A stretch of 64,000 bases of DNA from Venturia oleaginea (lineage: Eukaryota > Ascomycota > Dothideomycetes > Venturiales > Venturiaceae): contig JABMLP010000022.1 in the NCBI GenBank assembly GCA_013176395.1, positions 124,001 through 188,000 of the forward strand, given 5' to 3'. Shown piece after piece: positions 217 to 28,736 of the stretch. The position numbers and the translations under genes are program-made. Positions within the stretch are counted from its first letter, which is position 1; every line of letters begins with the position of its first letter. The notes below the pieces were generated by a model that saw only the letters and a list, made by a program, of their open reading frames with translations, ran no database searches and was not told the origin of the DNA.

Positions 217-509
217 TAAACACCCTCTGGCCAGTGAATATCCCTTGGAATCGGCGCGTTACTAAACTCCTAGATTGATATTCAAATCTATCCAGAATTC
301 TCGTACAAACCCTAAGTATATAGTCTGGAGGTGGAGGGATTGCGCTTGGTACGCAAATGCCACCTGTCTTTATTTCCTAGTAAATATGTAGAGTTCCTTT
401 CTCTATCGTAATTTGAAACTTATAGGATTCTTCCTCCTACTCAGCGACTATCTAGTCAACTCTCAGACTTCAACTGTCAGCCGTCAACTCTCAGACGAAC
501 CAACTCAAA
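217..509. other. Upstream region of the small secreted protein gene
   Basis: No gene is seen. The last 100 bases are pyrimidine- and CAACTC-rich, as in fungal 5' leaders, and contain the imperfect direct repeat AACTCTCAGAC just before the start codon at 510. Confidence 0.4.
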
Positions 510-8200: not shown

Positions 8201-9783
8201 CGTATCAAACAAGTGATGTGAAGCTTGCAAGATATAGGAGTCGTGAATTGTGCTAAGTAACTAAAAGCAGTAGGGAAGTAACTAGAAAGTGAAGATACGA
8301 GACACTGAGGGAGCAGAGTCTCGTCCTTCATATAGAGATCCATCTCCTAAGAAATCCTAGCTCTTCAATATGTTGTCACGGTACGACCGCGGACAAGTCC
8401 TTCCCGCCGTTGGGGTGGCCCCACGGCACGTGATCAAGGCAGAACCGGAGTTCTGCCGAGGAAAGGTTTTAAAGCCTACGTGGCTTCAACCAATTCGTAG
8501 CTCTTTGAGCTACGTCCTGTCGTCAAACCTGCCTGTTGGTTTGCCTGCCAGCCCGTATATAGCCTGTTGAATGATACCTGTTCCTGCTGCTGCTCCTTCC
8601 TCCTGATACCCGAACCCGCCCCGTGACATATGTTCATTTTGTTCATTTCGCCAAGAATGAAGCAAATGAACCACACGTGATCTTACATCATCTTTGTAAC
8701 GATCAACCAATCATAAGGAGATAGAATGGCATGCATTTGAATGCACATGAATGCAATCAAATACATCCGAATACAACCGAATACATGTCCACGTGATAGT
8801 ATCCGTAGCAGCGATACTAAATTGGCCTTACGCTTAGCCTCTAAAGCAAGACAAAATTTTGTAACTTCTACAATAATAGGGGTAGCCTTGGCGGGTATAG
8901 CAGCTTAACTTCGGTTTAGATTTAGAAGATACTTGTTATGGGCATGGCCCATGGTTGGTATAGGCTAAGAGCCTAAGCCTGATTGAGCCTAGTATAGAGA
9001 CAGAACCTCATTGAGGTTCTCTGTTTGTAGATACCTTCACTCCTTAACTGAATCTAAACAATCTTTGGCTACGAGTATGCTGCGTCTTTCCAGCTACCGT
9101 TCCGTAATAGATCCAGAGCCGGATCCGGCTTGAGTTTCAGCCATGAGTGTAGATTGAGAATATGAAGACTTATTGATTGTATCGCATCGTCGCAGTCGAG
9201 GAGATTTGGCTTAAGTTTCAGCCATGGGTGCATGCCTGCTCACCGTCCTAGCGGGTCACGGAGACATGACCGAGAGATCTGGCTTAAATTTCAGCCTTGA
9301 TTGCATGCCTGCTCACCGTCCTAGCGGGTCACGGAGACATGATCGAAGACCACTTAGCTAATGCAAGGATTTGTATGAGCGATAGGAACTGTACGGGTGA
9401 TGTTTCTGACGTGTAGGGGAGCGAGAGACCTGAGAAGCGGCGTGAACAGGGCTTGTAGTAACTAGAAGCGCAATTGACGAGGTTCTGAGATTTGTCGTGT
9501 GCCTTGACGCGAGAGAGATCAGCGGGAGGGTTCGAATGGGTCATAGAAAGCCGTTGGCCGTGTGGTGATTCAACACCAATGAATCTGCTTTGCGTGGTAG
9601 GGTAAATTATATATGGGCACAGCGGTAGTGCAAGCCCGGGCTCATAACCTGCCAAAAGGTAGATGAAGCAGACTAAAGTCTGAATTGATATGTGGGCATG
9701 CCCATATATATACACGATTGAGGGGCTCGTATTCAAGCTAGTACAAATGAGGTGAATGAAATGAGTTCATTTGACAGGGCATA
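5284..9783. other. Long gene-poor region
   Basis: No confident gene in 4.5 kb. It contains long homopolymers (T then G at about 6327-6346). A minus-strand frame of about 210 codons at 6684-7325 has some protein-like stretches, such as FFETKFVLASAVFNH and NGWRICAVHTV that recall the end of NTF2/SnoaL-like folds, but no plausible exon structure could be built; it may be a gene relic. The part after about 8935 (TGTTATGGGCATGGCCCATGG-like palindromes, repeated at about 9688) may be a decayed Copia LTR and leader preceding the gag relic. Confidence 0.4.
9201..9346. repeat. Direct tandem duplication, 2 x 73 bp
   Basis: Two adjacent copies of a 73-bp unit, each with GGCTTAA and TTTCAGCC followed by the conserved CTCACCGTCCTAGCGGGTCA. 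A more diverged relative starts at about 9127. The repeat lies just upstream of the Copia gag relic and may belong to its leader. Confidence 0.7.
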
Positions 9784-10914
9784 TTGTTTCCAACTCGTAC
9801 GCAGGAGCGACCAGATGCGGTAAACCAGATAAAACAAATATTCGAAAGAATCACAGGAAGGGATGAATTTTCGGATAAGAAAGAGTCGCCAAGTACACAG
9901 GGATCCGGATCTCAACGTCCTTCAATCGCACGAAAGGAGCAAGAGCAATATCAGGATCAACGTATACAATCTCAAGATACAACAGGTCGCACGAAAGAAA
10001 GAGGTTATCTAACTTGGGAGAGTATGCAGAGGATAGAAAACCAACAGCCGTGCAAAAGGGCAATCAAACTCGCCAGAATCCCCCACCACCACTACCAGAT
10101 AATCCAGAAAATCCAGATCCATCAGATGGAGATGACTCAGGAGGTAAAGGAGGTAGAGACTATGGAGGTGGTGGAGGAGGGTGGAATGGAAATGGAAATG
10201 GGGGAGGATGGGATGATAATAGATGGGGAGGAGGTTCGTGCGAAGAAAAAGGCACACTAGAAGGATATTCCCCAGGACCTCCAGGAGACCCAGGAACAGA
10301 TTCTTACGAACTTCCACCACGAAAAAGTATCCCAAATGTCTACCTACCACCCCAAGGTATCATTGCCTTCAATAAAACCTGGAGGAAAGATCGTAATTTC
10401 ACAGGTGAACCGTACGATATTCTTTAACAAAGGTCAAATGCTTGCAAAGGTGTAAGAGAATTGGAGGATATATTCAGGCGCCCTAATCCATCGTGCGGAC
10501 ACCTATTTGCGGAACTCCGAGCTTCATTACAACTTGCACTTGAGAGAAAAGAGTCAACGCAGGTCATTACATCTGAAGAGTCGCACGACATATACCTAAA
10601 TGACAGACGGCTTCATGAAAATGGAAGGCAGAGATTTCAACCGTCATACGGAGCGCCAAGACAAACTCATTCTTCTTCTACGTCAAATTGGCAAGGCAAA
10701 AAGGAATGGCAAAGGTACAGGAAGCCATTTGATCCTACCCCATTCCTACCACCCCAGGCCAGAAGAACAAGAATGGATGTTGGATCTGTGGTAGAATGGA
10801 CTGTAGGAGCCGCAAACACTGCCCAGAAGAACAGGCCCGTGCAAAGAAGGCGTTCTTTGCGACTGCTGACAAGATGGATATGGAACAGCCAGGGGAGAGC
10901 CAGTTCAAGATATA

Positions 10915-12258
10915 CAGTACTAGGGCAAAAGTTTCCGTACAATTAAGCGAAAACGCGAAATCTACACCTCTCATTTTTTTAACACATTATCTTTGCACTA
11001 CCATTATGCCACCTCAACGAAAGCCATTGACTCCTATAAACCCGCAGAGGCTTCCTAATCATCGTCTTACTCCATATCAACGCGGAAAAATTGATGCGCA
11101 GCGTGAAGCCGGGCTCAGTTTAGGCGCAATTGCGGCGCTACAAAAACTACCGCGTTCCACCATCCAATACAGCCTTGAAAAGGCCCCATTACGCCAGAAT
11201 GGCGAATCCCTACTTTCCAGCGGCCGGCCACGCTCGTATACAGACCGAGATGAACGATCTCTGTTACGTATTATACGTACGCAGCCTAAGTTAACGTACG
11301 AGGAGGTCAAAAGACAGGCTTGCATCGATTTTTCGAAGGATACCATCAGGAGGATATTGAAAGAGTACGGAATCGCAAATTGGAGGTCTGCAAGGCGCCC
11401 TTTCATCACACAGGTACATGCTGACGCCAGGAAGCTCTGGGCAGAGCAGCACATCTCGTGGAAAGCTGAAGATTGGGCGAAGATTATATGGTCTGACGAG
11501 TGCTCAGTTGAGCGAGGGACCGGCAAGGCAAGAACATGGTGTTTTCGCACACCAGGACAAAAATGGGAGACCTCAATGATTGATACCTATAAGAAGGGTA
11601 AAGGAGTGTCTATCATGATTTGGGCATGCTTCTCTGGCCAAGCAGGGCGCTCTGAATTGTACATTCTTAAGCGTGACCTAGAGAGCAAGCGTCAAGGCTA
11701 CTCTACGAACTCGTATATCAAGTTACTCGACGAAATGCTACCTACAGTATACGAACCGGGCCTTAAATTTATGCAGGATAACGCGCCTATCCACAAAGCC
11801 AAAAAGACTACAGTCTGGTTTAAGGAAAACCTCATTCCACTACAAGATGCGCCGCCCTACAGTCCTGATATGAACCCGATTGAAAACCTCTGGCGGAGGC
11901 TCAAAGAATTGGTCTACAAAGTGGAACCTATGATTGAATACGTTACTGGCGGTGTAGACAATATACGAGAGGTTCTAGAAGAAGCACTTATTAAGGCCTG
12001 GCGGCTTATTGAACAACATTATTTTGATGCTGTACTTGAGTCAATGCCAAGGAGGGTTGGGGCATTACTGGCGGCAGATGGTTGGCACACAAAATACTAA
12101 ATAGCTCACTGAATGGCTCATTTTGTAGCCCTGGTATTACTGTACATTATACGAGAATATGAGCGAAAATGATCGCGTTGAAAGCGCGATAATGTAATTA
12201 CAAGAATCACCATTTTTTGAGCGATCTCGGCTGTACGGAAACTTGTGCGACCCTACTG
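10915..12258 (+). mobile_element. Tc1/mariner (DD34E) element, apparently intact
   Basis: The element is 1344 bp and flanked by TA duplications at 10913-10914 and 12259-12260. The 27-bp terminal inverted repeats are imperfect: both start CAGTA and share AAGTTTCCGTACA. It carries one uninterrupted transposase gene with no obvious RIP damage, unlike the other transposons in this window, so it may be a recent arrival. It sits inside a Copia gag frame, and removing the element plus one TA restores that frame exactly (ATA TAC ATC). Confidence 0.88.
11006..12100 (+). CDS. Tc1/mariner transposase, DD34E
   Basis: A 364-residue, intronless transposase that cuts and pastes its element at TA sites. The N-terminus has helix-turn-helix DNA-binding segments (LTPYQRGKIDAQREAGLSLG, then the ARKLWAEQH region). 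The catalytic DDE domain has all three acidic residues: D in WSDECSVE, D in MQDNAPIH, and E in SPDMNPIENLW, with 34 residues between the second and third. The start ATG follows a short leader after the left repeat, and the stop lies ~160 bp before the right repeat. Length and motifs are normal for the family, so the protein could be active. Confidence 0.92.
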   Translation: MPPQRKPLTPINPQRLPNHRLTPYQRGKIDAQREAGLSLGAIAALQKLPRSTIQYSLEKAPLRQNGESLLSSGRPRSYTDRDERSLLRIIRTQPKLTYEEVKRQACIDFSKDTIRRILKEYGIANWRSARRPFITQVHADARKLWAEQHISWKAEDWAKIIWSDECSVERGTGKARTWCFRTPGQKWETSMIDTYKKGKGVSIMIWACFSGQAGRSELYILKRDLESKRQGYSTNSYIKLLDEMLPTVYEPGLKFMQDNAPIHKAKKTTVWFKENLIPLQDAPPYSPDMNPIENLWRRLKELVYKVEPMIEYVTGGVDNIREVLEEALIKAWRLIEQHYFDAVLESMPRRVGALLAADGWHTKY

Positions 12259-12525
12259 TACATCACGGCGTACGAAGGTACAGAGGAGCAGTTTCTGATA
12301 TCACTGTTGGAAGACCGGCAAGGAGAAGAGGTAACCCAATTTTTAGCAAACGCTGCTTTCTACCATGCCACAACAGGTGAAGACATCTACGGCCAAGAAC
12401 AACCGTATACTTATGCGGAACAATTTATCCTACAAAGTCAATATGCAAAAGCATACCATGGTGAACTTTGGGACGCAGGTGCTGCCCGTGTTTCAACAGT
12501 TGAAATTTATCAGCATCGACATTAA

Positions 12526-12796
12526 GCTAGGTATATCTACAGGATGTGAGTCGGGGGCAAATAGATAGATATGGAGAACCCAACGTGGTGAGGAAGAGGA
12601 AGCATTGTATAACACCGGGAGAAATATGGATTGCTGCTCGCTCGACATACCACTCCGGCAACTACCTATCTGATGCACAACATCATGTAATATCGACAAA
12701 TAGCAAAATCTCACAATCGCCAATACCACCAAACCACCCTTCCTCGCCAATTGGCCAATTCCACAGAGACGATCCTTGAAAAGAACAGTAACGCCA
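12526..12796. other. Spacer between the Copia relic and the repeat precursor
   Basis: No gene is seen. This is the 3' flank of the minus-strand precursor gene and presumably carries its terminator. Confidence 0.4.
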
Positions 12797-13427
12797 TTAC
12801 TTCTTCTCCTCAGAAGCCTTGTAGAAAACCCCATCGTCTGTTTCGCCTTCGTAACCGGTGCTTGGATCGGCGCCTTCCTGGCGTTTCCTCTTCTCTTCGG
12901 AAGCCTTGTAGAAAACCCCGTCGTCTGTTTCGCCTTCGTAACCGGTGCTTGGATCGGCGCCTTCCTGGCGTTTCCTCTTCTCTTCGGAAGCCTTGTAGAA
13001 AACCCCGTTGTCTGTTTCGCCTTCGTAACCGGTGCTTGGATCGGCGCCTTCCTGGCGTTTCCTCTTCTCCTCAGAAACCTTGTAGAGAGCTCCATCGTCA
13101 TTTTCCGTAGCGTAACTAGTGCTTGGATCGGCGCCTTCCTGTCGTTTGTCCTATTTAATTTCAGTGTGGTTAGTTGATGAACGACATCATTGCGAGGGGT
13201 GGTTGAATAATGGGGTGATCAACAGGGGATTTTACGCACATAGCTGGATCCGCTGTCTCCATGGGGGACATATACCTTCTCGGCTGGTACACGCTGCTCA
13301 AGTTCGGTCAGTTCTTGATGTTGAAGCAGGAAGAGGTAACACTGACAACCAGAGCATTTTCAGCAGATCCAAGAGGGATAGCAGTGGCGAGCGCACTGAA
13401 GGCAAGGATTTGGTAAGCGAACTTCAT
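12797..13427 (-). CDS. Secreted Kex2-processed repeat precursor (KEP), candidate RiPP precursor
   Basis: Proposed exons 13427-13347, 13293-13276 and 13150-12797 give 150 residues. Both introns have consensus sites (GTCAGT...CTGAC...CAG and GTATAT...CTAAC...TAG). Skipping the 18-bp exon also keeps frame. Residues 1-22 are a signal peptide (MKFAYQILAFSALATAIPLG...). After DKR come four 25-residue peptides at residues 37-61, 66-90, 95-119 and 124-148, separated by KRKR and ending in KK-stop. Units 2-4 read QEGADPSTGYEGETD(D/N)G followed by VFYKASEE; unit 1 is diverged (STSYATENDD, ALYKVSEE). Tyr is conserved at two positions per unit. Kex2 and carboxypeptidase would release the repeats in the Golgi. 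This architecture is that of fungal KEPs, which include ustiloxin- and asperipin-type precursors as well as pheromone- and repellent-like peptides. Which kind this is cannot be told from sequence alone. Confidence 0.8.
12800..13147 (-). repeat. Four 87-bp in-frame tandem repeats in the precursor gene
   Basis: Equivalent positions recur at exactly 87 bp (for example 12814, 12901, 12988, 13075), that is 29 codons: a 25-residue peptide plus KRKR. The three units at the 3' end of the gene differ by only a few bases. The unit at the 5' end carries several amino acid changes. This suggests recent duplication or gene conversion among the last three units. Confidence 0.92.
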
Positions 13428-13792
13428 CTTGTATATGAGGATAGAATGTTGCGTAATTGAGAAGTAATAGATGGTTGTAAGTGTCTTCGATATGGTTGGG
13501 ACGCGGGCTATATCTATGATTTACTCGTCTCATGGCACGTCTGGATATGGTACGCCTGTAGCATTAGGTTCCGCGTTCTAGACTACAGTCTAAATTGCGA
13601 CTTCCTCGGGATTGATTCAATACTGAGGCTCGATATTACCTACCTAGTACGGGGATAGCAGCAAGAGGATGCCATTGATAACGGAAAAATCTACTATAGG
13701 CTAGTGAGGCCGATTCGAAGTCCATCGAAGACAAGGTTCATTTTCCCTTCTTCATCGCAATCACGTAAGTGGGGGATGAGTATTGTTCTTTT

Positions 13793-13860
13793 CGAGTGAA
13801 CGAGGACAAACACAACATGCCATCAAGTTGATTTCCGAGAGCCGAAACAGCCATGAGGTT
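13793..13860 (+). repeat. Dispersed repeat, copy 1 of 3
   Basis: Contains AACGAGGACAAAC and TTTCCGAGAGCCG in the same order and spacing as copies at about 46098-46160 (same strand) and 49143-49195 (opposite strand). Diverged; no coding potential. Family unknown. Confidence 0.5.
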
Positions 13861-14943
13861 AAGACTTACAAGATTCAAATTAAATCCCGAGATTTCATAT
13901 CACATGGCAGGAAGTCTATGGGGCGCAATTGACAGATCAACCTTATTGTCATGGCCAGAAAGACGCTCACACTTGGCAAGAATGCGCGAAGGATCCTTGG
14001 CTTTGACGTAGGCGTAGATCTTATCCATATATGCGCAGAGTACCGTCCGGTCCGGTCCATACAGAGGCTACTAAGCGAGGAACATGAACTTTTAAATTTA
14101 TTTAGGTGAGAGTGGGTTTGTGTAAGAGTTCAACCCTCAAAGGTGTTTCGCAAGTGAGAGAAGACTGCTTGTATTTCAAAGTATCTAAGTACAAAGAAGA
14201 AAGTGTAGGTACAGGAAGAACAACTTGTATATATAATCTTCCAAGTAGGAAAAGGACATGCTGTCCTGAGAAGAGAATAGAAAGGAGTAGAAGCGCATGT
14301 GAAACGGTCCCTGAATAATCCCTGCTAGGCGCACGTGAGAACTACCAGGTAGTGCTAAGAATCCATCCAGGATAAGTTGAGAAAGGATCTATCCTTTGAC
14401 AGTTTGTCTGAAACCCAAATAGATCTGTAAAGTATTCAACGTACTATACGGCTACGTATTAGCTAGCTGTACTAACCAATAACTATATTTACGTACTAAC
14501 TATCTTAACGAAATAATTTCTTTGCTTCTCTAGGTAAATTCTAAGATTTTCCCTTCATATTTTCCGTATCAGAGGTAAATTAAAAGGTAGCAGATTTAAA
14601 GAATCTATTCTAACTGTTAGAGGCGCGGATTCTCTTCCCTTAGAGATACGTAATCTAGATTCTTAGGACTTAAAATATTTACGGAGAGAAGCTGAAAATA
14701 TTTCGGCGGGGTGGTTGGTGCGTAAAGATGGTGGATGCACGACGGTATAGTACGTTGAATACGTGCCAGATCTATTTGAGTTTCAGACGGTCCCGATGAG
14801 AGTACGATGAATTCGTAGGCGGTTTCAGATCTACCAGCACAGGATTTTCTCACGCAAACACGCCAAGTTTAACGTCTTTCTGGCCAGGGCTATAAGCGAA
14901 TATCCTCATTCACTCGTTAAGCACGACATTGACATCGATTTCC

Positions 14944-15008
14944 ACCTCCACAGCATAGAGCGGCGGAGGTAGTCCCTATAAGCATCCAGTTCATCGGACC
15001 CGATGCCA
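14944..15008 (+). repeat. Dispersed direct repeat, copy 1 of 2
   Basis: About 65 bp shared with 18133-18196, including ACCTCCACAGCATAGAGCGG and CATCCAGTTCATCGGACCCG. The two copies flank the retroposon at 15468-17099 but are too far from its ends to be its target duplication. Confidence 0.75.
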
Positions 15009-15467
15009 GGACTCCATCATTATTGCCATGGATCTCCACCTCCACCAAGCCCTTCAGTCATCGAGTCAACGCGATAATAAGGACTTCGATGAAACTCGAT
15101 GGTAGCGTTATTTATCGGATGCAATGACGAATTTAGCTTCATCGGTGGATGGTATCGCGATACTGAGGATATTGGTATTAAGTTTAAGCGTCGTAGTGAG
15201 TAGCTAAGGCACTACACTACGAATTTCAGATTACATACAGCTGGGCTTAGAATTGAGTATTTTTATCCTAGATCCGATAGCTTAACTAGCTACTTAAAGT
15301 TCTCTAGTACGCTAATATGATATCACCCCTACTCTATACACGTGATCTAATAAAGCTACCGTAGTACCTTAGCTACTACGTCTGTGTTACAGATCACCTC
15401 AAGGCTGAAGAGCAGGAAGGCAGGACTCGCAAAGAATGGTTGGATGATAAGAAGTTATTGGTGCGAC

Positions 15468-17099
15468 TGATTGATTGATTGATTGATTGATTTTATCCTA
15501 CTCGGTTGCAGCCGCTTAATCACGCAGCTATGTCCGGTTAGGAGGACTTCATCAGACACCCGACACGTGATAGATTATATAATCCACCGCGCCCCACTTC
15601 GCCCCGTTCACTGAAACAAGACCAGTTGTCCCCTCCGTCCTCCCTCTTTTCCCTTAACCAGTATCTCCAAATGCCCGCTGGCTCTTGTAGATACTGGTTA
15701 CTCTGCTAGTATATCTGTGCTATGTAGACTCAAGAGGCAATGCCTCGTGTTTCGCTATCCTTCTACCTACAGTCTCCCTCTAGTGCTCAGCTTTGTCTAT
15801 CTGTTTCGCCTTATCCCTCAAGGCCAATGGGTTCCCTAAGTATGTTTCTGCTTGTGAAAGTTGCCTTGCACCAGATTCCTATGCGGCAGTGTATTTGGTT
15901 GTGTGATGCTGGAGATAATAGTAACCATCGTAGTTGTGATTTCGCTGCTTGGGTGTGATACTCCGGGTATGCCCGTAGACGAGGCCGTCTGGTAGCTGCC
16001 GTATTGTATGGCGCCGATCGTGCTATAGACTTGCCGTCTTATAGTCGGAGCCTACCTGCTGCTAGTCGCTCTCCCTGCTTGCTATATCGCGCTCCTACTC
16101 TTGCCAATGCCATAACTGGGACGCAACAGTCTGGGGAGAGGCTCAAGACCACGTCTGCTAGCTTACAGGGAGGAGATTTGCCGCCAATAGGCTCCTTCTA
16201 TGCGTCCTTACTACTTACTGTGTCGCGCACCTACTCTTGCCAATGCCATAACTGGGAGGCAACAGTTTGGGGAGAGGCTCAAGGCTCTGAACATCAGCTT
16301 GCAGCAGGACGGTTTGCGGAGACGATAGTAGATGAGGTTCTCTAGCAGCTGCCGTATCGTGTCGCACCGATTGTGTTGTAGACCTGTCGTCTTATAGTCG
16401 GAGCCTATCTGCTGCTAGTCGCTCTCCCTGCTTGCTATATCGCGCTCCTACTCTTGCCAATGCCATAACTGGGACGCAACAGTCTGGGGAGAGGCTCAAG
16501 GCTACGTCTGCTAGCTTACAGGGAGGGGATTTGCCGCCAATAAGCTCCTTCTATGCGTCCTTACTACTTACTGTGTCGCGCACCTACTCTTGCCAATGCC
16601 ATAACTGGGAGGCAACAGTTTGGGGAGAGGCTCAAGGCTCTGGGCAACAGCTTGTAGCAGAACGGTTTGCCAAGACGTTGGGAGAGGTTGTCTAGTCGTT
16701 GCAGTGGTGTGTGGTGTCGATTGTTGCACACCGGGCGTCTGGTGTTTGAGTTGTGTTGAAGGTATTGCCGTTCTAGCGGTGACTCGTCGACTCGTAGCGT
16801 TGCAGTGTCATCTGGGGTGATGGACTAGCCGGGAGATAGTGACTAGATGGTTGCTGTTGTCTTTGGTGGACGCATCGTTCGTGTAGCTTGCTCATGTATT
16901 CGTGTGCTTGCTATGCCGTGGCCGCGACGGCGACTCTAGAGGTATCTCATCGACGCTGAGGGACGCGCGATGGCCTCTAGAGCCCGGAGCGGCCACTGGC
17001 AGAGGTGTTTTGATGATCTTTAGATGATAATTCTGTAAATTCCAAAAATTGAGTTCTCGCTGTGTGTGGTGGTTTTTTTTTTTTTTTTTTTTTTTTTTC
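15468..17099 (-). mobile_element. LINE/SINE-like retroposon copy 1 with 14-bp target duplication
   Basis: A 1632-bp element flanked by identical 14-bp direct repeats GTTATTGGTGCGAC at 15454-15467 and 17100-17113. Read on the minus strand it starts with an A-run (17074-17098), then CCACCACACACAGCGAGAAC, and ends in a simple tail of about six AATC units (15468-15492). A second copy, in the opposite orientation and with its own 14-bp duplication, is at 60467-61711. No reverse transcriptase or other long coding frame is present, so it is non-autonomous and presumably mobilised by a LINE. The LINE/SINE assignment rests on the tail and the duplications, not on homology. Confidence 0.75.
15990..16697 (-). 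repeat. Two 353-bp tandem units inside retroposon copy 1
   Basis: The segment from about 15990 repeats at a period of about 353 bp (for example GCTTGCTATATCGCGCTCC at about 16077 and 16430). Each unit itself holds two copies of a shorter motif, ACTCTTGCCAATGCCATAAC. The copy at 60467-61711 has only one such unit, which explains most of the length difference. Confidence 0.8.
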
Positions 17100-17113
17100 G
17101 TTATTGGTGCGAC

Positions 17114-17891
17114 GGAGTCAGTCCTAAAGGAGAACAGTACGTGCAGGAGTCACGTGATATTCCCATAGTTCCCACAGGTCTTGGCAAGGCTTACAGTTGT
17201 GGGAAGTGTGGGAAAAGGCCAAGAGGTGTGGGAATACACCTTGGCACCCATAACCAGAACGGTATATAGGGAGGACATTGGACGGACTTTCCTTTCTCTC
17301 TTCGTGGTTACTTCATGTTATGTTTCTCACATAGGAGCTTCTTCAACCTACTACAGTAACGACCTCTTAGATACAATCAAGCACAAGTCATATGCATACG
17401 AAGCAAGCCCACCCCCAAACTTCATGCTAACCGACAAGCGTTCGGGATTGATCTGAGGATCAAATCGGTTGGACGACAATTGAATTGGGAGATACATCGA
17501 ACGGCTAGGATCTATTGAGCCTCCAAAGAACCTGAGCAAGGGAAGGTACTCAAGGTAAGTACTTCCAGACTGATATTGTCCTTACCCCAAACCCGCGGAC
17601 CAGAACAAGAGGACACAGGTGTCAGGAAGGTCTTGACATAATCAACTGTGTTGAGAAATGAGTTCCCCGTAACAGTCTGGAGGGTATGACATATTGGGCG
17701 CGGATCACTTACCAGGTGCTACAACATACTAAAAACAACAGAATCTACGAGAATTGGAAGTCCCGAGGCCCTGGTTGGTAATTCGCGCATAACATATAAT
17801 ACCTCCTAGACGTAGTATATACCTCTACGAAAAGACCACGACGGTATGTCGATAAATTAATGACATCGGATAGATGAAACATATAATACTA
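17114..17891. other. Gene-free spacer
   Basis: No conserved coding sequence, RNA gene or repeat is recognised between the retroposon duplication and the MITE. Confidence 0.4.
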
Positions 17892-18040
17892 CTATGGTGT
17901 CAGGGAATTTAAATGTTAAGTGGCATCATCCTTGTCAGCCCTACCCCGCATCCGCTTTACAACAAAAATACTGCTACGAAACCTTGCGGCAGTCAAAGCA
18001 TTGTAGGCCCGATAGTTATTTAAATCCCCTGACACCACAG
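17892..18040. mobile_element. 149-bp MITE with TA duplication
   Basis: Terminal inverted repeats CTATGGTGTCAGGGAATTT on the left and, inverted on the right, CTGTGGTGTCAGGGGATTT enclose about 100 bp. TA flanks both ends (17890-17891 and 18041-18042). The CTGTGGT terminus resembles that of the Tc1-type element at 43275-45675, suggesting Tc1/mariner mobilisation. Confidence 0.75.
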
Positions 18041-18883
18041 TAAGTCATTCTAATAAACTATATGGAATGACATTATCGGGGCATTCATCGGATGACATAG
18101 TAGACGGCGAAGCTCGATGACTGGGGGGCTTGACCTCCACAGCATAGAGCGGTGGAGGCAGTCTCTATAATCATCCAGTTCATCGGACCCGATGCCAAGG
18201 ATGGATGAGGTTATTGTCTCGATCTTCGAGCAGCCAGTCCGATGAGCCGATAAGGCTGAAATTGGCCTAGCATGTCCCTTCTAAGTTCCGTAACAGGGTC
18301 CTCTTCATCCAGATACCAACGATGGATAAACGGGATGAGTTCCGATAGACCCCTGAGAGGAAAGATACGAAGCTGAAAACACCGTACCTTCCCTCTTTCG
18401 GACGAGAGAGCGTGCAAATTTGCTCGCAGATGGTGTGCGGGCAAGCCGCTAAATGACTTTATTATTAAACGCCTGCGCCGCTGCTTGATTGAGACGTCAA
18501 CTATCGAGATTGTCTTTTGGGCGGATAGCCGAGGACAAGGACAAGGCACGCAGGAAATGTTGAATAGTACCTCGATCGAATTAAACTTCACCCGATAACT
18601 AAACCCGTGACACGAAAGATGGTAATACCTTTGAAGAGTTGGCAGACTCTGAAAACGGGTGACTGTTATCGGGATCCTTGACAATGCTGGACAGACTTTC
18701 GTCGGTTTTCTCCGATCTTCTGTTCGCTTTGACATTGCGGGTAATGAGGTGCGCTCTATGCGCAAGACTCTTAAAAAGTAATCCACATTTCGCAATGAAG
18801 CGAATTCATATTTAACCACCTGTTCATGAGGTACCGCTAGTTGCCTTGTTAATTCCGCTCGAAGATGCTGTGATTCCGTGCGC
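18041..18883. other. Spacer 3' of the subtilase gene
   Basis: Contains the dispersed repeat at 18133-18196. A minus-strand open frame of about 200 codons (18211-18819) lacks a good ATG start and shows no recognisable domain, so it is not called as a gene. Confidence 0.35.
18133..18196 (+). repeat. Dispersed direct repeat, copy 2 of 2
   Basis: Matches 14944-15008 over about 65 bp with a handful of transitions. Confidence 0.75.
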
Positions 18884-21710
18884 CTAAAGGTAACTTAAGT
18901 GGAAAGGCACCGTAGTCACACATTCCCTCACTGCCAACCATGGCTTGACCGCACAAACCCTGAAATAGTACGTGCCTGGAGAGGCCCAACTGCCGTCTTC
19001 CATCTGTCCTGTCCAAAGAAGGTACGCTGTTGCAACGCGGTTAAACCCACTGGGGCGATGTGTCAAATCCTTGGCGAATGGCGAAATATGGAGAGTGTCA
19101 TTTGAGGCGGCCGATACCAGGTCTATGTCGACAGCCTTCGCGAAGAATGCCAACCTCAGAAGCAGTGTAGGGTAGGTCGTTGAGGCGGTGTTGAGATCTT
19201 TTGAAGCACCTGAGCCAGGAAGTTTGAATGTGGAATTCGAGGGAATCGGAAATAGGGGTGTCTGTGGATCAATTACTTGTGCTTTGGTGGCGGACCCAAG
19301 AGACGTGAACCAAAAGTTGTCTCTCCAAAGAAAATTTGAGGTCTGTTCAAGCACCGTGAACTCTTGTAAATAACAAGCCACGCCGCCGTAGGGTATCTGC
19401 AAGGCGGAAGTCGTGTTGGTCTCGAGACTGATGTATCCCCCATATATTGGACATCGTTTTTGTGATTGCTGAAGCTGGGTCAAAGCTGCTGTAACCTGGA
19501 TCTGAGTGCTCTCTCCAGGTTGAAGTGTGAAGTTGCTTTTCTCGAAAGTCAAAAGTGCTGCCATGTCGCCCTTTAGAGTGCCTAGGAACTCTGCGCTCGC
19601 GAAGGCTGATGTTTCGTTCGTTCTGGTCCACGGTACGACAGTCTTGTTCTGGTCGCTAAGAGTTAAGACTGTGACTGCCGCAGCAGTCTGAAGATCGTAG
19701 TGGACTGGTTTCAACCCGACATTGCGCACTCCAATCGAGCCTCGACTCTTTCCGAACTCAGTGTGGATGAAAGGTAAGAAGGATTTCTCGGGCAAGGTCG
19801 TGCTTCTGATAGCTCGCAGGGGATCGATGTTCCCACCGCCTTGTTGCCAAACTGGTGCAAGAAAGCTAAATGATTTGCTCGTTCCATCGCTGAATGGAGT
19901 CGGATCCGCTGTAGTTATCAAGAGGGACACGATTTCCTGGGAGGATAACCAAGGTCGAGCTTGTTTTATCAAGGCCACACAACCAGCAGCATATGGTGCA
20001 GCCATAGATGAACCTGAAAGGGCACCGTACCCACCCCAAGAGCGTGGGAAGGGTGCCATCACACCGTTGCCTGGAGCCACAAGTGACGGGAAGAGGCGCA
20101 TGTCGCCGCCAGGCGGTCCCCACGAACTTCGCGGTGACACAGTGGCACCAGGTTGGCTCGAATTACTCACGAGTAAGTAGCCAGTTTGGGTGAAATCCGA
20201 GTCCAATGTCAAAGTGACTTGCTGGCCTTGTGCCAATTGCTGCAGCCAGTATTTCCCAATCGAGTCCGATACTGCACCAGCTCCCAGCATACCGGGAACG
20301 TTCAGATCAAAATCAAAGAGACCACTATTGTAATTCTGAATCACCAAGTATTTCCCCCCAGCGTCTCGAAGATTTTGCATCTTCTGCCGGAACTTGCAGC
20401 CGCCCCTGCGCACGAGTAAAGCCTTATTTGATATGTCTTCTGTTGTGGGTGGCAGCGGAGAACAGCCATCCTCAGCCTTGCTCGCGTTGGGCGTAAGAGC
20501 GAAGAGTTGGATTGTCTGCGGAAAATGACTGGGATTTGCAGGCTGCCATGGGAATTTGTAGGAGACATTCTTTGGACTGATGTTGAAGCGGGCGGCCGGT
20601 CGAGATCTGGTGACATGAGGGACGGTTGAGGATCCGACAGAAAGCACGCCTAGTCCAGCGGCAGGCGAGTCTGCTACAAAGGTACCCATCAATCCATTGT
20701 TGCCCGCTGCAACAATGCACACGGTGCGTCCTTCGTTAGTGATTCTTGTCAAGACCATAGCTGCTGGATCTAAGCGGAAATTAGATGAGGGTAGAAACAT
20801 GCTGCAAGGAGAGTCGTACCATCGATGAACGGGCCCCCAGCGAGGGATAGGGAAATCGATATCACATCAACCTTTCTCTCATGGGCTTCGAGAACAGCTT
20901 TGATGATTGTGTCTGCTTCAATGGCGACGAGCCTGCAAGCTACCACTCTGTAATGTTCAATCTTGGCCCCAGGGGCCACGCCCACCCAGTCCATGAGCGG
21001 GTCTTTGCCAGCAGCAATCCCAGTCACGTGTGTTCCATGGTATCGACATTCAGAGTATGGATCAAACTCGGAGCGTGTGCTAGGTTCACCAGAATAATCA
21101 CGCCCGTACGTAACTTTGAACTCGGGCCCAAACCCACCACCAAGCGCGCGGTGGTAGTAGTCTAGACCAGAGTCAACAATGGCGATAGTGATGCCGATGC
21201 CTGTTATGTTCGAACGATGTAACTCAGCAACGCCTGTTGATTCGTGTACACTACTCGAGCGCAGCAGTGTGTTGATTTCAGTGAGATTTCTTGTGTATTT
21301 GGTAGTGAGGTCGGTAGTAGCCGTCCAAGACTCATCGCCGAATGGATCCTCAGCCAAAGTATATTGTGGTGATCGAAAGACTCCTTTCACCCCAGATTGG
21401 CTCTTCAAGCAACTTTCGACATGTGCAAGGCTATGGAGGGGTCCTCCATCTGGAATCTCCAAAGATACTCCTGAAAAGAGTGGACTTGAGAACTCGTGGC
21501 GGAGTTTGGGACGAAAGCCGTCAAGACAAATGATGTTTTGCAATTCACGAAATCCAATGGTATCCTAATCACAATCAGTCACGTGCATGTGCAGCTCCGA
21601 AGAAAGAGTCTTACCTGATCTGTCTCGGTTTCCACAATGAAGACTTTGGCAAGGGAAGCAGTCGCCAGCAGAAAACACGATAAGAAAAGCTGCATGGTCA
21701 GTTTCTTCAT
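18884..21710 (-). CDS. Secreted subtilisin-like serine protease (S8A) with PA domain
   Basis: Exons 21710-21615, 21564-20820 and 20769-18884 give 908 residues. Both introns are 50 bp with GT-AG ends and keep frame. A signal peptide (MKKLTMQLFLSCFLLATASLA) is followed by an inhibitor-like propeptide and the peptidase S8 domain. The catalytic triad is D163 (IAIVDSGLD), H208 (YHGTHVTG) and S535 (SGSSMAAP), with oxyanion N304 (AAGNNG). A protease-associated domain is inserted at about residues 360-480. A C-terminal Fn3-like region follows, as in fungal and bacterial Vpr/C5a-peptidase-type subtilases. All key residues are present, so the enzyme should be active outside the cell. It is head-to-head with the UstYa-like gene and could share its regulation. 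A role in maturing the repeat precursor is speculation; general nutrition is the simpler role. Confidence 0.92.
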
Positions 21711-22165
21711 GATCGCTGATGCCGATTGATGAAGGAGGGTGGATGTCATACCTTCGTAATGGAATCGCGTCAAGTAATGGCGGCACTGACCAGCACAACA
21801 TACCTGCTCTCATTCCAAAGTCCGGTGGACGGGTTTGTAGAGAGGGATTGACGCGTCGATACAGGCGCTTTCACGGGTATCGTAGACATGAGATTGACAG
21901 GCCCCGGAAGTGCTTTGTGGTTTATGGTGATTGATCGGCCCTATTACCACATCGAGGGCTGTGCCTTGCTCGCCGTCTTCCATCGTTTGGGTATCACCTC
22001 AATATGCTATCCTTGGCTTGTCCGCCCCACTGCAATGCCGGTCAATTGACTTCGACCCATATTACGGAGCCAGCAAAGCTTGGTTCCTGACCTGACCCCA
22101 GACGATTGATAAAAGCGCACCTTCGTCTCACCACCAGCGGCTGGTTCTCTGTTACGTCGGAAGGC
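21711..22165. promoter_or_regulatory. Shared divergent promoter of the subtilase and the UstYa-like gene
   Basis: 455 bp separate the two start codons, so both promoters must lie here. A TATA-like GATAAAA is about 55 bp upstream of the UstYa-like start. No operator could be identified with confidence. This is called from gene arrangement only. Confidence 0.5.
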
Positions 22166-22873
22166 ATGTATACCAAGCTCGAAGATTCTCAGCTCGAAGA
22201 TTCTCAGCTCGACGATTCTCTACTAGAGGTTGAGCCGCATCGTCCTGCAAGTGCTCGACAACGTGGCACTCTCTATCCTTCCATTGGCATATTTATCTCC
22301 ATTTCTGTGGCATTGGTACTCTTCGCAGTTACAAGACTGCCACACAGAGACGGGAACGGTCAAGTAAGAGAATGCGGCCACTCCGTACTTGAAGCCAAAG
22401 CAAACGGTTGCAAGTTCGATCCGACAACATTTGCTTGGCTCCCTGGTAAGATGAAATAATTGCACCAAAGTGTATCCCATCAATTACGCGGCTGATAATG
22501 TTCAGAGAGATGTCAGGACCATGAATTGGCAGATGAATGGCGAAATGGGAACTTCAAAATATACGCAAACCGCTTCGGCAATGTAACCAAAACGGAGCAG
22601 GAATTCGGCGATGATTTAGGTCCCGCCTACATCACGAACGCGGTACACAAGGGACATAACTGCTGACATTTCCATTTCGCTGATAATAAACAGGTGCACA
22701 AGGCTCACTGTGCATTCGCTTGGAGAATGATGCATCGATATTACCGACGTGGGCAAAAACCTCATTCGGGACTTGATTACGTCCATACGAAACATTGCGC
22801 GAAAGTCATCCAGGAGAAAGGTGAAGACCTCATCATTAAAACGAGAGCTATCGTCGGATTTCCAGCATGCTAG
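22166..22873 (+). CDS. UstYa/DUF3328-like membrane protein with two HxxHC motifs
   Basis: Exons 22166-22445, 22506-22642 and 22694-22873 give 198 residues; both introns (60 and 51 bp) are GT-AG and keep frame. A cytosolic tail, with a short in-frame repeat (LEDSQ LEDSQ), precedes one membrane segment at about residues 37-58. A lumenal domain follows with ECGHSVLEAKANGCKFD and then two HxxHC motifs, HKAHC and HTKHC. The paired HxxHC motifs mark UstYa-type proteins, which oxidatively cyclise ribosomal peptides such as ustiloxin and asperipin. The CGxSxxEAxxxGC part belongs to a widespread, mostly uncharacterised subgroup, so the enzymatic role is less certain. It starts 455 bp from the divergent subtilase gene and lies 9 kb from the repeat precursor. 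Confidence 0.72.
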
Positions 22874-23609
22874 GCGCAAAACTTCAAATTGAAAGCTTTG
22901 TTCACTTACCAGGATACGATTTGGCATCAGTATGGACAGACGGCGGAGAGAGCAGGCAAGGAGGAAACGGGAAACATTTCATGAAGAGCTGGAATCCTGC
23001 TGATGACTGTCAGATCTAGAATATGTTGCGAATGAGCTTTAATCCACACGAGGCGGCATGGAGCGTGATATATGATCGATGCTGGGCGATACTCTCGATA
23101 CTACAAGTTGTGGAGAGAAACGAATGAGAACCAGACACGATGCTACAGTTGTATCCAGAGAGCACGCGTAACTGTTGGGTCAATAATTCATGCCCTCTGC
23201 ACATATGATAGAATTTCAAACTTCATTGCCAGCTCTGTACAGTGGAATATTGTCTCACGAAGTCTGCACTCTCACTCTTTCTCGTTGCACATCGTAAACG
23301 ACCTCCGAGGCTTTCATGCTTATTGTCGACAAGGGCCATGAAATCACGACTCATCTCCAAATATCATTGATGGGCGAACATTTTCTTCCGGGTTACCACG
23401 GGAACTTCATTTATGGGCGGTAGGTATACCCAGCACTACTTGTGTCGGCTCTTCCGGTCCGGCCACCTCCATCCTTCCTACTCTCACTTGTAGATCAGCT
23501 CACATGGTGCACAGTGCGGATCAACGATAAGGGCGTTATTTTACGATCTAGGCACGTCAAGGTGTATCAGGAGATGCAAGCAGATAAATTTGCTGACGTA
23601 AATAACAAC
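22874..23609. other. Spacer between the UstYa-like gene and the MULE
   Basis: No gene is recognised. The first part should carry the 3' end of the UstYa-like transcript. Confidence 0.4.
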
Positions 23610-26467
23610 CGGCTAATGACTGTACACCCACAATCATCGACTTTTCGGACTATTGCATACATGACTGCGACGATTGCAATTATTGTATGTTCAATGACTA
23701 TTACATACATACAATTCTGTAGCAATCAACACAATTAATATAGTTACAGTCAACACAGTGGAGGGCAACTTACCGTGCAAACTTCTGCTCAAAAACCCGA
23801 TTTCAGCACACCAACAACCTCAAATTACACCTATGGCGACACTATTATCAAGCCAGGCGCTGTCCCAGCGCTCTCAAAAACCTCCTGCACCTGGAGATCC
23901 CTCTCTATCCAACGCTCCAGCTTGGAATGACTTTCGAGACTCTTGAGGAAGCCAAAAAACTCATTACCGACGCGATTGCGGCCGCCAATGAGTCTTTCAA
24001 CGTTAAGAACAGCAAGCCCCAGTTCTGACAACTCGAATGCCGTGGTCGTGAGAAGCATACATGCCTATTCGCAATACGAGTAGCCCTCGTAGGCAAGCCA
24101 ATGGAGTGGAAGTTACGACAACTTAAGAAGCATACGTGTCCCTCCCAGTGTCCTATTGGCTGGCAGCGCGTTCATTCAGTCAAATATCTCGCTTGAAACC
24201 ACTTCGATATTGTCGCCAATAATCGCAAACTCCCCTCGAAATTTGTACAAGATGAAGCACGTCTCGAGCAGGGCAACAAGATCTCCAGCCGGCAAGCCCA
24301 TCGCACTGTGGTAGAGGTTAGGAACCAGATTGAAGGGGAGGAGAGTAAGCAGTTTCAGTACATCAAACCCTTGCTACTGGCGCTTCACGACGCGAAGATT
24401 CACGATCATGAGTTCATCTCTGAGGAGGAGGGAGACATTAGCGCAGATTGGGCTGAACTCTGCAACTTATATAACGGCGCTACTATCAAGTACAAGTCAG
24501 AGAGAGGTGTCTTTCAAGCCGCTGTAATTATGCCTTCGGCGTGTACTTTGGCTCTCGACAGATGTCGTAGTCTTCTCGTCGTTGACGGCACTCACTGCTC
24601 CTCCAAATATGGAGGCATCCTGCTTGTTGTCACCACCGTGGATGCCGACGAAAACAACCTCCTTATAGCCTGGGCAATCGTACCTACAGAGTCAAAAGAT
24701 TGGTGGGAATGGTTCCTCGAAGCCATCGTCGAAAACCTCACAATGTTTGGCAGAGAAAAAGGCAATGACCCTGGAGAGTTTGCGATAATCACTGACCGCG
24801 GCAAAGGCCTCGTCCCAGCTATCACTAAGTACTTTCCGGGCTCCTGGCATTACTACTGCACCTGGCATCTTGCAGAGAATGTAGATGACCACTACATAAT
24901 TACGGCCAAATTCAAGCAGATGTGCCGTGTCACCTCCCACCGCGAATTCCAAGCTCTTCTTAAAGAAATACGTGTTCTCAACCCGGAGGCGGCCAAGTAT
25001 ATTGAGGATATTGACAACGGCAAATTTGATCGCTGGGCATCCGCCTACGCGCCTTACGGCGAGTTTCCTTGTTACGGGCACACTTCATCTGGCGTTGGAG
25101 AGTCAATGAACGGCAGATATCTTGATGAGAGGCGGAAGCCGATTCTGTACATGTTGGAAGACATCTGGACCGCCACAATTCAGCTGTTCTATGACCGCGG
25201 CGAGTTCGTACAGAAGGACAATGTTTTTACGAGATTTGCCGTCAACCACATCGCAGATCGCAGAGATGTTGGCCGGAAGATGATTTGCGTTCCACAGAAT
25301 AAAGGTATGTCAGAATCGCGCCATTTTGAAGCTCCTAAACTGACATTAGATAGGCAAGGCAATTGTACGACTTCTGAACACCGCCGCTATTGGCTGGCGC
25401 GTCGATTTAGATGCGAGAACTTGTACTTGCCTTGAGTGGCAGGACATACGTCTTCCCTGCGCTCATGCTTGGTGCGCTGCCGATTTCTTCAAAGTCAATT
25501 CTAATATCCTACTCTTTGGCACTGACAACGTCGAGAATCTAGGTCTAGGCGATGTAACCACCGGCATCCAAATCTACATGGCTCAACGCTATAGAGAGAC
25601 CTACCTTCCTTCCTGTCGCACAATCCTTGTTAATGAACTGATGCCCGACAACGTTACTGAGCCTCCGGAGTTGAAAGAAAATGGCCCTGGCCGCCCTCGG
25701 AAGAAGCGCTTCCGAAAACACACTGTCCTCTCACAAATTAAGCAAAATTCGAAGCGCAAAAACCCCAAGTCACGTTCAGAGAAGAGCCAGGAAAAAGAGA
25801 AGGTCACAATTGAGGTTTCAGATGACGAGAAAAGCGACGAGGATGACACTGACCCGGAGGCAGAGGAGAGTCTGTTTGTCAAGGATAATGAGCCCTCTGA
25901 GGATGAGGTAAAACGACGTAGGCATCAAGAAGAGCGTGCTAGCATTGGGGCTAGGAACTTTGAGCTTGCAAAGAGACACCACGGCATCGAGACTAATGAG
26001 GAATATCGCGAGTTTCACGCCGCTGAAATCGCTGGATCAGAGGCTCAAGAACAGCTCGAAAAGGTACGACAGAAGGGCACTAAACTTCAGCCAAAAGCAG
26101 TACAATTGGCAGACGAGATCAGCGAGATTCAGGCGACAATTGAAACAGCACGGTTCTGAGCGAGATATTTGAGCCAAAATGATGAGTTTAATTGAGTTGA
26201 GTCGATTGCCGTGTAGTTTGAGTTTGTACATTATTCAAATGCGGTTAGCGCCATTCTATGGTGATGGTCGGGACTTCGATTACAGCAGCGACTCTATGCA
26301 ATGAATGGCTGACCCTTTTGGCCTCAAACATATAATCAGTGACTATCGCATACAATTAATGACTAAAACATACACGACTTTGTCTTCATGCCAAATGATT
26401 GTGCTGGTCATTGCGTCTATGTGCTGGTCCGAAAATTCGATGATTGTGGGTGTACTGTCATTAGCCG
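23610..26467 (+). mobile_element. Mutator-like element (MULE) with terminal inverted repeats
   Basis: Inverted repeats of about 40 bp at 23610-23655 and 26425-26467 share CGGCTAATGAC, GTACACCCACAATCATCGA and TTTTCGGAC. They enclose a MULE-family transposase gene. No clear 8-11 bp target duplication is visible, perhaps through decay. The ~120 bp just beyond (26487-26610) is purine-rich and AT-rich. Confidence 0.78.
23927..26159 (+). pseudogene. MULE transposase with in-frame stops
   Basis: The frame runs from about 23927 to 25304, through a 49-bp intron (25305-25353, GTATGT...TAG), to 26159. Order: an N-terminal zinc-finger-like region, the MULE transposase core (LLVVDGTHCSSKYGG, ITDRGKGLVPA, WHYYCTWHLAENV), a SWIM zinc finger (CTCLEWQDIRLPCAHAWC) and a charged coiled-coil tail. 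TGA codons at 24026-24028 and 24194-24196 break the N-terminal part and look like CGA-to-TGA changes, the kind RIP makes. A further frameshift probably separates the 23831 start region. After 24196 the frame is open for about 640 codons, so a truncated protein could still be made. Confidence 0.8.
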
Positions 26468-27523
26468 CTATAAAAAACTTAAAAAGGCGTAATTAGAGGA
26501 GGCTAAAAAGGAGGCTAAGAGAGTATAAGGCTATTTTAGAAGGTATATAGATGAGGAGCTAAAAAGAGTTTTAGAAGTAGCTACTAAATTTTATAGTAGG
26601 CTGGTATAAAGTTTGGGTAGGAAAAAGGAAGCAATTGAAATTGTGGTGCTGCATTTGTCCACCTCCGCCAAATGCCTGTCACTCCACAAGGGGGTAGTCT
26701 TAACGATAAGAACCAGTAACAAAACCATTATGTTGTCCATCCTTTCTCCACTGGGCATTATCACCTCGAGCACCTTTGATCAACCAACCATTTTCACGAA
26801 CAGGCCAGTTTGTGCTGTTTTCTCTAGCATGAGAGGGACAAGAGCTAAGTCTTAACCTCGGGTAAGAGAAGAGCTAGATATGTCTCTTGCTAACCCTGCT
26901 CCTCTCGAATTCGACTTTGAAGTAATCGAGCTTGCTGACACGCCATTTCCCCTTCTACACCCTTCCCGTTGTCGTTATTCTCCATTGTCATCTTCGAGCA
27001 CCATACAGACCATTTGTCTATTCCTCCCTCTCGCTTCCACATCTTGTCAAGAGACTCGCGAATTGTCCACCCTCCTTGGCCACCGCTGCTTATTCCGGAA
27101 CCCCGCCGCTTGTTTCGCGGCTTGCATAGACAAGCTTCGAATCGCACGGGAGATACAATTCACAAAACTAGGCATGGGAAGCTACGAGTAAAGAGAAGGC
27201 GTATATCCTCACGCTAGCATAGACATAAACGACAGGAGGATATGCCGAAATTTTGATTGGCAACCGCATCTTGTTACACGTCCCCCGCGAAAGAGTACAG
27301 GGACATCAACAAATTGGAAGCCATTACAATCTCTTTAGATGCTGTGTATTATTTGACGGGGACCATTGGTAGCACGTCTGGAGCGTATAGCCTGTTCGAA
27401 GTCGTATAGTTCATTGAGACTTGTTTTGCTTTGATCTAGAGTCGTTAATTGTGTGTTTCTCTCTGCTTTTGCCGAATTATTATTGCGATTGTGTCCATTG
27501 TGTTTGTCCTCTCTATCAGCAGG
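26468..27523. other. Spacer between the MULE and the SET gene
   Basis: No gene is recognised. Short open frames at 26880-27217 overlap in several frames on both strands and show no conserved motif. The last part should be the SET gene promoter. Confidence 0.4.
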
Positions 27524-28657
27524 ATGTCAAGTGGCTCAAGTCTGCCTCGGACGACTTTGTTCGAAGTCAAGGAAACACCCACTTGTGGGAGAGGAGCATT
27601 TGCTCTTCAGGATATACCGGCTGGAACACCACTGCTTCAGACCGCATCGTTACCAGCTTCTGTCATTTTGAGAAATTATAAGCGTGAGGTCTGCGCCCAG
27701 TGTTTTATGTACGAGCGTGGAAGGAATCTGAAGACTAGATTAACGGAGACTGGTCATTCGTTTTGTGGTCAGGAGTGTCTTCGATCTTGGATGAAGGATG
27801 AGGGACCAGTTGCGATTCAGGCGTGGACGGCGATAGAAGGATTCATCAAGAGCAAAAGTGCGCAGAGGAATGGGTTCATTTATGGGAATGATGATGATGA
27901 CTTCCATGATATGAACGATACACGACCGAATGAGGAAGAGATACGAACAGCTTGGGATTCAGTATCAAGTACAGCCCATTTCATCCTCGAAGCCCGAAAT
28001 GGATCAACAAGGAAACCGCACAGGAGAGCTTTAATATCTGTTCTCGCCATATCTCCAAATCCAGATTACCTCTCCTTTCTCCTCTCGGCAACAATCTCCC
28101 GTTCTAAAACTGAACTACTACCAACGGAATGGGAAACCCTTCTCCAGTTAGTCCCAGACCCAAAACCATACGCTACGTCCTCATGCCTACAAGCAGCGAT
28201 CCAATCATACCTCCACCTCCTCGCTATCCTTCCCATCCCCCTCCTCCCATACATAAACGCGGCGGCCTTCCTCGACCTCGCCGAACGCGATTCGCACAAC
28301 TCTTTCGGTATCCGCAGTCTCGATGACGGTGGTGATGAGTTTCTGGGTTATGGTGTTTGGCCTGTAGCTTCTTTCTTTAATCATTCGTGTACTCCGAATG
28401 TGGGGAAGAGAAGGGTGGGGAGGGGATGGGGTTTCTGGACGAATAGGGCGGCAGAGAGGGGAGAGGAGTTGTGTATTAGTTATATGGGAGGTGATGAGGT
28501 TGATTTGGATTTGGGGAAGAGAAGGAAGAGGTTGAACGAGACGTGGGCTTTCGAGTGTGGGTGTGAGAGATGTGTGATAGAGGATGTGCAGGTTCTGAAT
28601 GGCGTTGAGGTTTTGGTGGAGGGAGAGGGGAATAGGAAGGGCAAGGATGAGATGTGA
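27524..28657 (+). CDS. SET-domain protein (SET6/SMYD-like)
   Basis: A 377-residue intronless protein. The N-terminal SET half (TPTCGRGAFALQDIPAGTPL) is split by a cysteine-rich insert (CAQCFMYERG, then HSFCGQECLRSW) that resembles a reduced MYND finger, and a helical middle region. The C-terminal SET half has the cofactor and catalytic motifs SFFNHSCTPN and EELCISYMG, then a post-SET-like CGCERC. This layout is that of SMYD/SET6-type lysine methyltransferases; the substrate is unknown. An upstream in-frame start at 27449 would add a hydrophobic leader, but the ATG at 27524 fits the SET start better. Confidence 0.85.
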   Translation: MSSGSSLPRTTLFEVKETPTCGRGAFALQDIPAGTPLLQTASLPASVILRNYKREVCAQCFMYERGRNLKTRLTETGHSFCGQECLRSWMKDEGPVAIQAWTAIEGFIKSKSAQRNGFIYGNDDDDFHDMNDTRPNEEEIRTAWDSVSSTAHFILEARNGSTRKPHRRALISVLAISPNPDYLSFLLSATISRSKTELLPTEWETLLQLVPDPKPYATSSCLQAAIQSYLHLLAILPIPLLPYINAAAFLDLAERDSHNSFGIRSLDDGGDEFLGYGVWPVASFFNHSCTPNVGKRRVGRGWGFWTNRAAERGEELCISYMGGDEVDLDLGKRRKRLNETWAFECGCERCVIEDVQVLNGVEVLVEGEGNRKGKDEM

Positions 28658-28736
28658 TATATTGGTTCATCTACTGATTTTATTTGCGCAGGCAGTCGGG
28701 TTGGATAGATGATGATCTTGAGAACATTATGATATA

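Follow-up and report, generated by a model that had tools for sequence, protein, structure and literature searches.

Does this stretch of the Venturia oleaginea genome contain a small dikaritin-like (UstYa-type) locus for a ribosomally synthesized and post-translationally modified peptide (RiPP), with a divergent relative of UstYa as its enzyme? The window, i.e., the whole stretch of 64,000 nucleotides that was analysed (C15:124001-188000; genome of 46 Mb in 61 contigs, with C15, C4 etc. as contig labels), encodes a Kex2-processed repeat protein (KEP) and, 8.7 kb away, a membrane protein with two HxxHC motifs. Based on sequence, a dikaritin-like locus with a divergent UstYa relative is given a probability of about 0.52. 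The locus is not filed as a member of the dikaritins, since the class-defining DUF3328/PF11807 protein was tested for and not found. The features on which the question turns are:

12797..13427, minus strand: KEP-type precursor gene (162-residue model with signal peptide, pro-part ending in DKR and four repeat units)
12802..13147, minus strand: array of four 87-bp units coding for QEGADPST-[GS]Y-core-[FL]YK-[AV]SEEK
22166..22873, plus strand: putative divergent membrane protein of the UstYa superfamily (198 residues; CGxSxxEAxxxGCxFD block and two HxxHC motifs)

The precursor gene is real and encodes a KEP. Both properties that define such proteins, an N-terminal signal peptide and tandem repeats parted by dibasic sites, are present: the minus strand reads as four units of 25 residues plus KRKR (29-residue units) behind a signal-peptide exon, and Tandem Repeats Finder reports a period of 87 bp with 4.0 copies and 91 % matches. 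A secreted precursor with four 25-residue repeats at KRKR sites, as first proposed from the sequence, is thus confirmed. The preferred model comprises three exons (13427-13347, 13293-13240, 13150-12797) and two introns; exon 2 is a prediction, and single-intron models are likewise open. The predicted signal peptide corresponds to the hydrophobic stretch in MKFAYQILAFSALATAIPLGSA, as judged by our own hydropathy script. Unit 1 is preceded by DKR and the last unit ends in EEKK before the stop codon, so that a dibasic site stands at each unit boundary and after the pro-part. In a protein search that scored 8000 candidates, a single relative reached E<=0.001 (P0001, 110 residues, E 9.9e-13); it is known as a protein from a 5399-base contig. 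P0001 starts and ends like the precursor and holds a single unit (QEGAVPSTGAGETDDGAFYKASEEKK), while its middle part looks like an intron read through. The array is open in other frames too. In favour of the chosen coding frame are its signal peptide, its dibasic sites and the start and C-terminus that it has in common with P0001.

The presence of tyrosine in a repeated core, which is expected of dikaritins, applies to all four units, each of which contains two tyrosines even though the adjoining core residues vary. Unit 1 (QEGADPSTSYATENDDGALYKVSEEKRKR) reads SYATE/ALYK and differs in its core from units 2-4 (QEGADPSTGYEGETD(D/N)GVFYKASEE, then KRKR). Accordingly, the two conserved tyrosines per repeat of the original prediction stand, but the motifs named for them, GYEGE and VFYK, are confined to units 2-4. 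QEGADPST and SEEK are invariant, and variation is confined to positions 9-22, within which Tyr-10, Glu-13, Asp-15, Gly-17, Tyr-20 and Lys-21 are kept.

The membrane protein gene consists of three exons (22166-22445, 22506-22642, 22694-22873). Its product contains HKAHC at residue 141 and HTKHC at residue 170 as well as one hydrophobic, transmembrane-like helix, in agreement with the earlier description of a membrane protein with two such motifs. A double HxxHC in a membrane protein near the precursor is one suggested criterion for dikaritin-type RiPPs (PMC12048977), and this feature is present. The model aligns over its full length with P0002 of V. inaequalis, which together with P0004 (V. nashicola) and P0003 (V. 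effusa) is among its best relatives. Both motifs are kept in the full-length P0002 and P0004; P0003 is a short record lacking the HxxHC part.

Relatives in the same genome, located on C4, C5, C9 and C60, connect this protein to UstYa. Most members of this family (CGxS family) share a CGxSxxEAxxxGCxFD...W.P..C block and the double HxxHC; one member on C5 has degenerate motifs, and one on C4, found solely through the HxxHC scan, lacks the CG. Comparison by hhalign of the window protein, P0002 and P0003 with the paralogues yielded a score of 180.7 (E 1.6e-28), which makes the window protein a firm family member by sequence. The paralogues in turn align with canonical UstYa, represented by a profile of seven UstYa frames from the same genome, with a score of 39.0 (E 6e-5). 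For the whole family the score against this profile was 35.8, compared to 17.2 for the best of 100 column-shuffled controls (0/100 as good), and the alignment spans HxxHC. PF11807 is matched at E<=10 by five of the nine sequences in the family alignment (best E 1.1e-4); when scanned singly, four of eight match, each below the 25-bit cut-off. The family's link to UstYa therefore appears well above the shuffled control, yet for the window protein it is indirect, and the sequence comparisons point to its probable membership in the wider UstYa superfamily via its paralogues.

An AlphaFold model of P0002, built with seven sequences (mean predicted local distance difference test score 65.8), contains a helix at residues 26-51 and places both HxxHC motifs within predicted helices behind this transmembrane-like helix. 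A comparable arrangement is described for CctR, a copper-dependent DUF3328 hydroxylase with a helix pair, one HxxHC per helix and two copper ions per monomer (PMC12435403). Judging from the P0002 model, the window protein would resemble CctR in its single transmembrane helix and in the helical location of both HxxHC motifs. It differs from CctR, which acts on a non-ribosomal cyclic peptide, in carrying the cysteine-containing CGxSxxEAxxxGCxFD block and in falling outside the Pfam UstYa model. Sequence searches against PDB returned 15 weak matches for the window protein (E 0.098-0.49; one unrelated bacterial protein), judged to be due to chance, and one match for one canonical UstYa (E 0.13); the family and UstYa profiles each gave no match at E<=0.1.

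Whether precursor and membrane protein belong together was examined within the same genome. Three of the four other CGxS-family loci (C4, C5, C9) also hold PF11807 genes together with a KEP-type array, a figure that counts CGxS-family loci and not all UstYa loci; arrays were looked for at C4, C5, C9 and C12 among the 15 PF11807 loci. The array detector requires dibasic sites and a repeat identity of 60 % or more, so that degenerate precursors would escape it. At the fourth family locus (C60), neither a KEP-type array nor a PF11807 match lies within 20 kb, and C12, which has two UstYa genes, shows no array and no CGxS-family gene within 20 kb. Each array is preceded by a signal-peptide-like start, which shares the array's frame at C5 but not at C4 and C9, where splicing would be needed. 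A random spot would fall within 8.7 kb of any of the 17 UstYa-superfamily loci (15 with PF11807 plus those on C15 and C60) with a probability of 0.6 %, a value calculated post hoc. In a published survey of 7878 KEPs, a DUF3328 gene is among the 15 nearest genes for 22 % and missing there for 78 %; of the repeats of DUF3328-linked KEPs, 65.6 % contain tyrosine, versus 38.2 % for the other KEPs (PMC7329392). Considering the three array-bearing loci, the low chance of proximity and these published figures, the pairing of the precursor with the UstYa-like gene appears slightly more probable than its opposite on sequence grounds. From this we infer that the two products may work together and that a cross-link would be made.

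The array-bearing loci differ in their composition. At C4:642679-649300, one canonical UstYa, three CGxS-family-like genes and a KEP with two units of DDTKYAWYNFKRD lie within 7 kb. The array on C5 (C5:721904-722068, 722296-722538) is made up of PLFAK units flanked by KR sites and in some cases accompanied by EAEA spacers (e.g., KREAEAAPLFAK), which we take to resemble the processing sites of yeast alpha-factor; it is close to a UstYa-type sequence and two CGxS-family genes, one of them with degenerate motifs. The array on C9 (C9:679135-679674) contains KRYEDIIRDVSDRETGGV(I/V)A(N/H)K six times and adjoins two canonical UstYa genes and one CGxS-family gene.

Several results weigh against the interpretation as a dikaritin-like locus. 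The window protein has no Pfam match of any kind, including UstYa/PF11807, even at E<=10. The initial assignment as a UstYa-type (DUF3328) protein was therefore rejected in its literal sense and replaced by that of a divergent relative, which would hold for the wider superfamily through the paralogues. Compared directly with canonical UstYa, the window protein, P0002 and P0003 alone reach a score of only 19.6 (E 0.042), exceeded by 2 of 100 shuffles, in an alignment that falls outside the HxxHC region. Foldseek with the P0002 model found no match in PDB at E<=0.001 and four at E<=10 (best 3.3). A DUF3328/UstYa (PF11807) gene near the precursor is named as class-defining for dikaritin-type RiPPs (PMC12048977), and none of the 23 genome matches to PF11807 (15 loci) lies on contig C15. 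A tyrosinase in the cluster, an original dikaritin criterion that has since been relaxed (PMC12048977), is likewise missing, as none of 25 genome matches is on C15, in line with the earlier remark that the window shows no tyrosinase. The same 25 matches include none on C4, C5, C9 or C12; thus, the three KEP/UstYa loci on C4, C5 and C9 also are without a nearby tyrosinase. The gap of 8.7 kb holds the subtilase gene and repeat DNA, while at C4, C5 and C9 the family gene nearest to the array is at about 0.7-4.5 kb. Moreover, the canonical UstYa proteins at these loci may be what acts on the arrays; their presence means that the association with arrays fails to show that the CGxS family acts alone. 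Finally, the single unit of P0001 lacks the first tyrosine while keeping the second, and none of the 8000 candidates scored in the precursor search yielded a relative from V. inaequalis, V. nashicola or V. effusa, although all three species do have relatives of the membrane protein.

These last observations bear on the strongest competing explanation, that of an ordinary KEP. Kex2 and Kex1 would free linear 25-mers, the N-terminal glutamine of which would convert to pyroglutamate, for a role in signalling, antimicrobial action or plant interaction, whereas the UstYa-like gene would serve something else. For mushrooms, KEP peptides in linear and in pyroglutamated form have been described (PMC9769878), and the units of the window precursor begin with Q after KR. 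The share of KEPs near a DUF3328 gene (22 %), the altered unit of P0001 and the Venturia membrane protein relatives, which turned up in the protein search without a precursor, point in the same direction. Conversely, the scarcity of UstYa-superfamily loci makes proximity by chance unlikely, the CGxS family accompanies KEP-type arrays at three of four other loci, and both tyrosines persist in all four units amid varying core residues. Overall, an ordinary KEP is regarded as a possible but somewhat unlikely explanation.

The locus could also be a relict of a larger dikaritin-type cluster that was split by repeats, in which the precursor is expressed, the canonical UstYa and tailoring genes are gone and no modified product is formed. 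The contig's lack of PF11807 matches, compared to one or more at C4, C5 and C9, and the repeat DNA between and around the genes would fit such decay. Precursor, subtilase and membrane protein genes, however, all have open models and complete motifs, and both HxxHC motifs are kept in V. inaequalis and V. nashicola. In addition, only one DUF3328 protein belongs to the asperipin-2a pathway (PMC7329392), so that a locus with a single oxidase has a precedent. A relict is thus considered decidedly unlikely. That the precursor is a plain repeat-bearing secreted effector candidate acting uncut, with incidental dibasic sites, is very improbable: repeat-bearing small secreted proteins of V. inaequalis were once so classed, but Cin3 among them was later reclassified as a dikaritin precursor (PMC9632046), and the dibasic sites of the window precursor occur at each unit boundary and after the pro-part.

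If the locus is dikaritin-like, the precursor would enter the secretory pathway by means of its signal peptide. The divergent UstYa-superfamily protein, a putative copper-type oxidase anchored by one transmembrane helix, would modify the repeated cores by means of its two HxxHC helices; the conserved tyrosine of [FL]YK is the probable target, and the upstream tyrosine may be a second one. Kexin and a Kex1-type carboxypeptidase, for which the sites are visible in the sequence, would subsequently set free four peptides, each about 25 residues long with an N-terminal Gln: one variant (unit 1) and near-identical ones (units 2-4). Conceivably, the neighbouring subtilase trims the product. A stricter version, in which this UstYa branch undetected by Pfam is the sole oxidase and cross-links one or both of the tyrosines ten residues apart in a 25-residue peptide, is considered unlikely. 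If this is true, Venturia would have a class of large-ring or stapled peptides that escapes DUF3328-based genome mining.

The locus shares several traits with the dikaritins (ustiloxin, phomopsin, asperipin-2a, victorin and the V. inaequalis clusters), i.e., signal peptide, tandem repeats, kexin sites, tyrosine in the repeat and a nearby membrane protein of the HxxHC...HxxHC type (PMC9632046). It differs by an enzyme that PF11807 does not detect and by the lack of a tyrosinase match on C15. Known dikaritin cores are short, in contrast to the window unit of 25 residues with its two tyrosines ten residues apart. With KEPs in general, the locus has in common a signal peptide followed by repeat units with KR/KRKR at their borders (PMC7329392). 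Dikaritin-type clusters have been sought via DUF3328 (PF11807) genes, and nine of them, including that of the former effector candidate Cin3, were reported for V. inaequalis through such a screen (PMC9632046). P0002 from this species is likewise without a Pfam match at E<=10; hence a DUF3328 screen would not by itself pick it up. If the CGxS branch works alone with a KEP precursor, clusters may have been missed in scab fungi and perhaps beyond. A search of the open-licence PMC literature for Venturia and UstYa together found nothing.

The interval between precursor and membrane protein gene comprises:

about 15472..17078, strand not assigned: dispersed repeat of 1.6 kb between precursor and subtilase
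18884..21710, minus strand: secreted subtilase (S8, PA and fn3_5 domains; three-exon open model)
21711..22165, strand not assigned: divergent intergenic region of 455 bp between subtilase and UstYa-like gene

The subtilase, a secreted S8 protease, is modelled with exons at about 21710-21615, 21564-20820 and 20769-18884; other acceptor choices are likewise open. The proposed head-to-head arrangement with the membrane protein gene was found, with 455 bp separating the start codons; one may guess that this region serves as a shared promoter and confers shared regulation. The suggestion that transposons filled the interval between precursor and subtilase gene holds in part. The 1.6-kb repeat is shown to be dispersed, with other copies on C15 that are about 94-98 % identical, and the recognised DNA transposons fall outside the interval; transposon filling was therefore rejected as a full account. 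These transposons, which flank the locus and were recognised by Pfam, are a Tc1/mariner-type transposase frame (10733-12097) and a transposase of the Mutator-like element type with SWIM domain (24197-26159).

The locus lies in an inverted segmental duplication, to which two further features relate:

1..48897, strand not assigned: part of the window inside the duplication
13580..14120, strand not assigned: arm-specific 541 bp, differing between the duplication arms

The duplication pairs C15:115424-172897 with C15:1-62481, i.e., at least 57 kb per arm starting at the contig end, and window positions 1-48897 (C15:124001-172897) form part of one arm. Aligned blocks are about 99.9 % identical, with 28 differences (16 substitutions plus 12 gaps, each gap counted once regardless of its length). 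The arms are separated by a spacer of about 53 kb; within it or overlapping it are two further repeats, one inverted (5.9 kb) and one direct (10.7 kb). Beyond these blocks, about 310 additional bases are present in the other arm near window position 15160, and the segment C15:35041-40326 (about 5.3 kb) of that arm replaces window positions 13580-14120, which hold 541 other bases. This insertion falls within the precursor-subtilase interval of the other arm and contains an open reading frame for what was identified by eye as a retroelement protease/reverse transcriptase. The duplication might be an assembly artefact, but a real and very recent event is favoured by the 5.3-kb insertion and the scattered differences.

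Two of the 16 substitutions are in the 354-bp repeat exon: unit 2 shows a D/N change, and the substitution in unit 4 is synonymous. The chance of two falling there is about 0.5 %, as computed with 17 instead of 16 substitutions. The boundary of the arm difference is only 152 bp ahead of the precursor start codon, so that the sequence upstream of the gene is not the same in its two copies. Two near-identical copies with unlike upstream DNA make it possible to compare naturally occurring promoter variants of a secreted-peptide gene.

The Pfam scan of ten long open reading frames in the window revealed no tailoring methyltransferase family, small multi-exon genes not having been searched systematically; one of the ten encodes a SET-domain protein. 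This protein, an alkaline phosphatase and a Zn2Cys6 transcription factor are encoded at 27449-34317, beyond the UstYa-like gene and within the duplicated segment. Elsewhere in the genome, two of the tyrosinase matches (C19:36152-36864 and C41:36963-37675) have identical scores and lie about 36-37 kb along each contig, perhaps representing another duplication.

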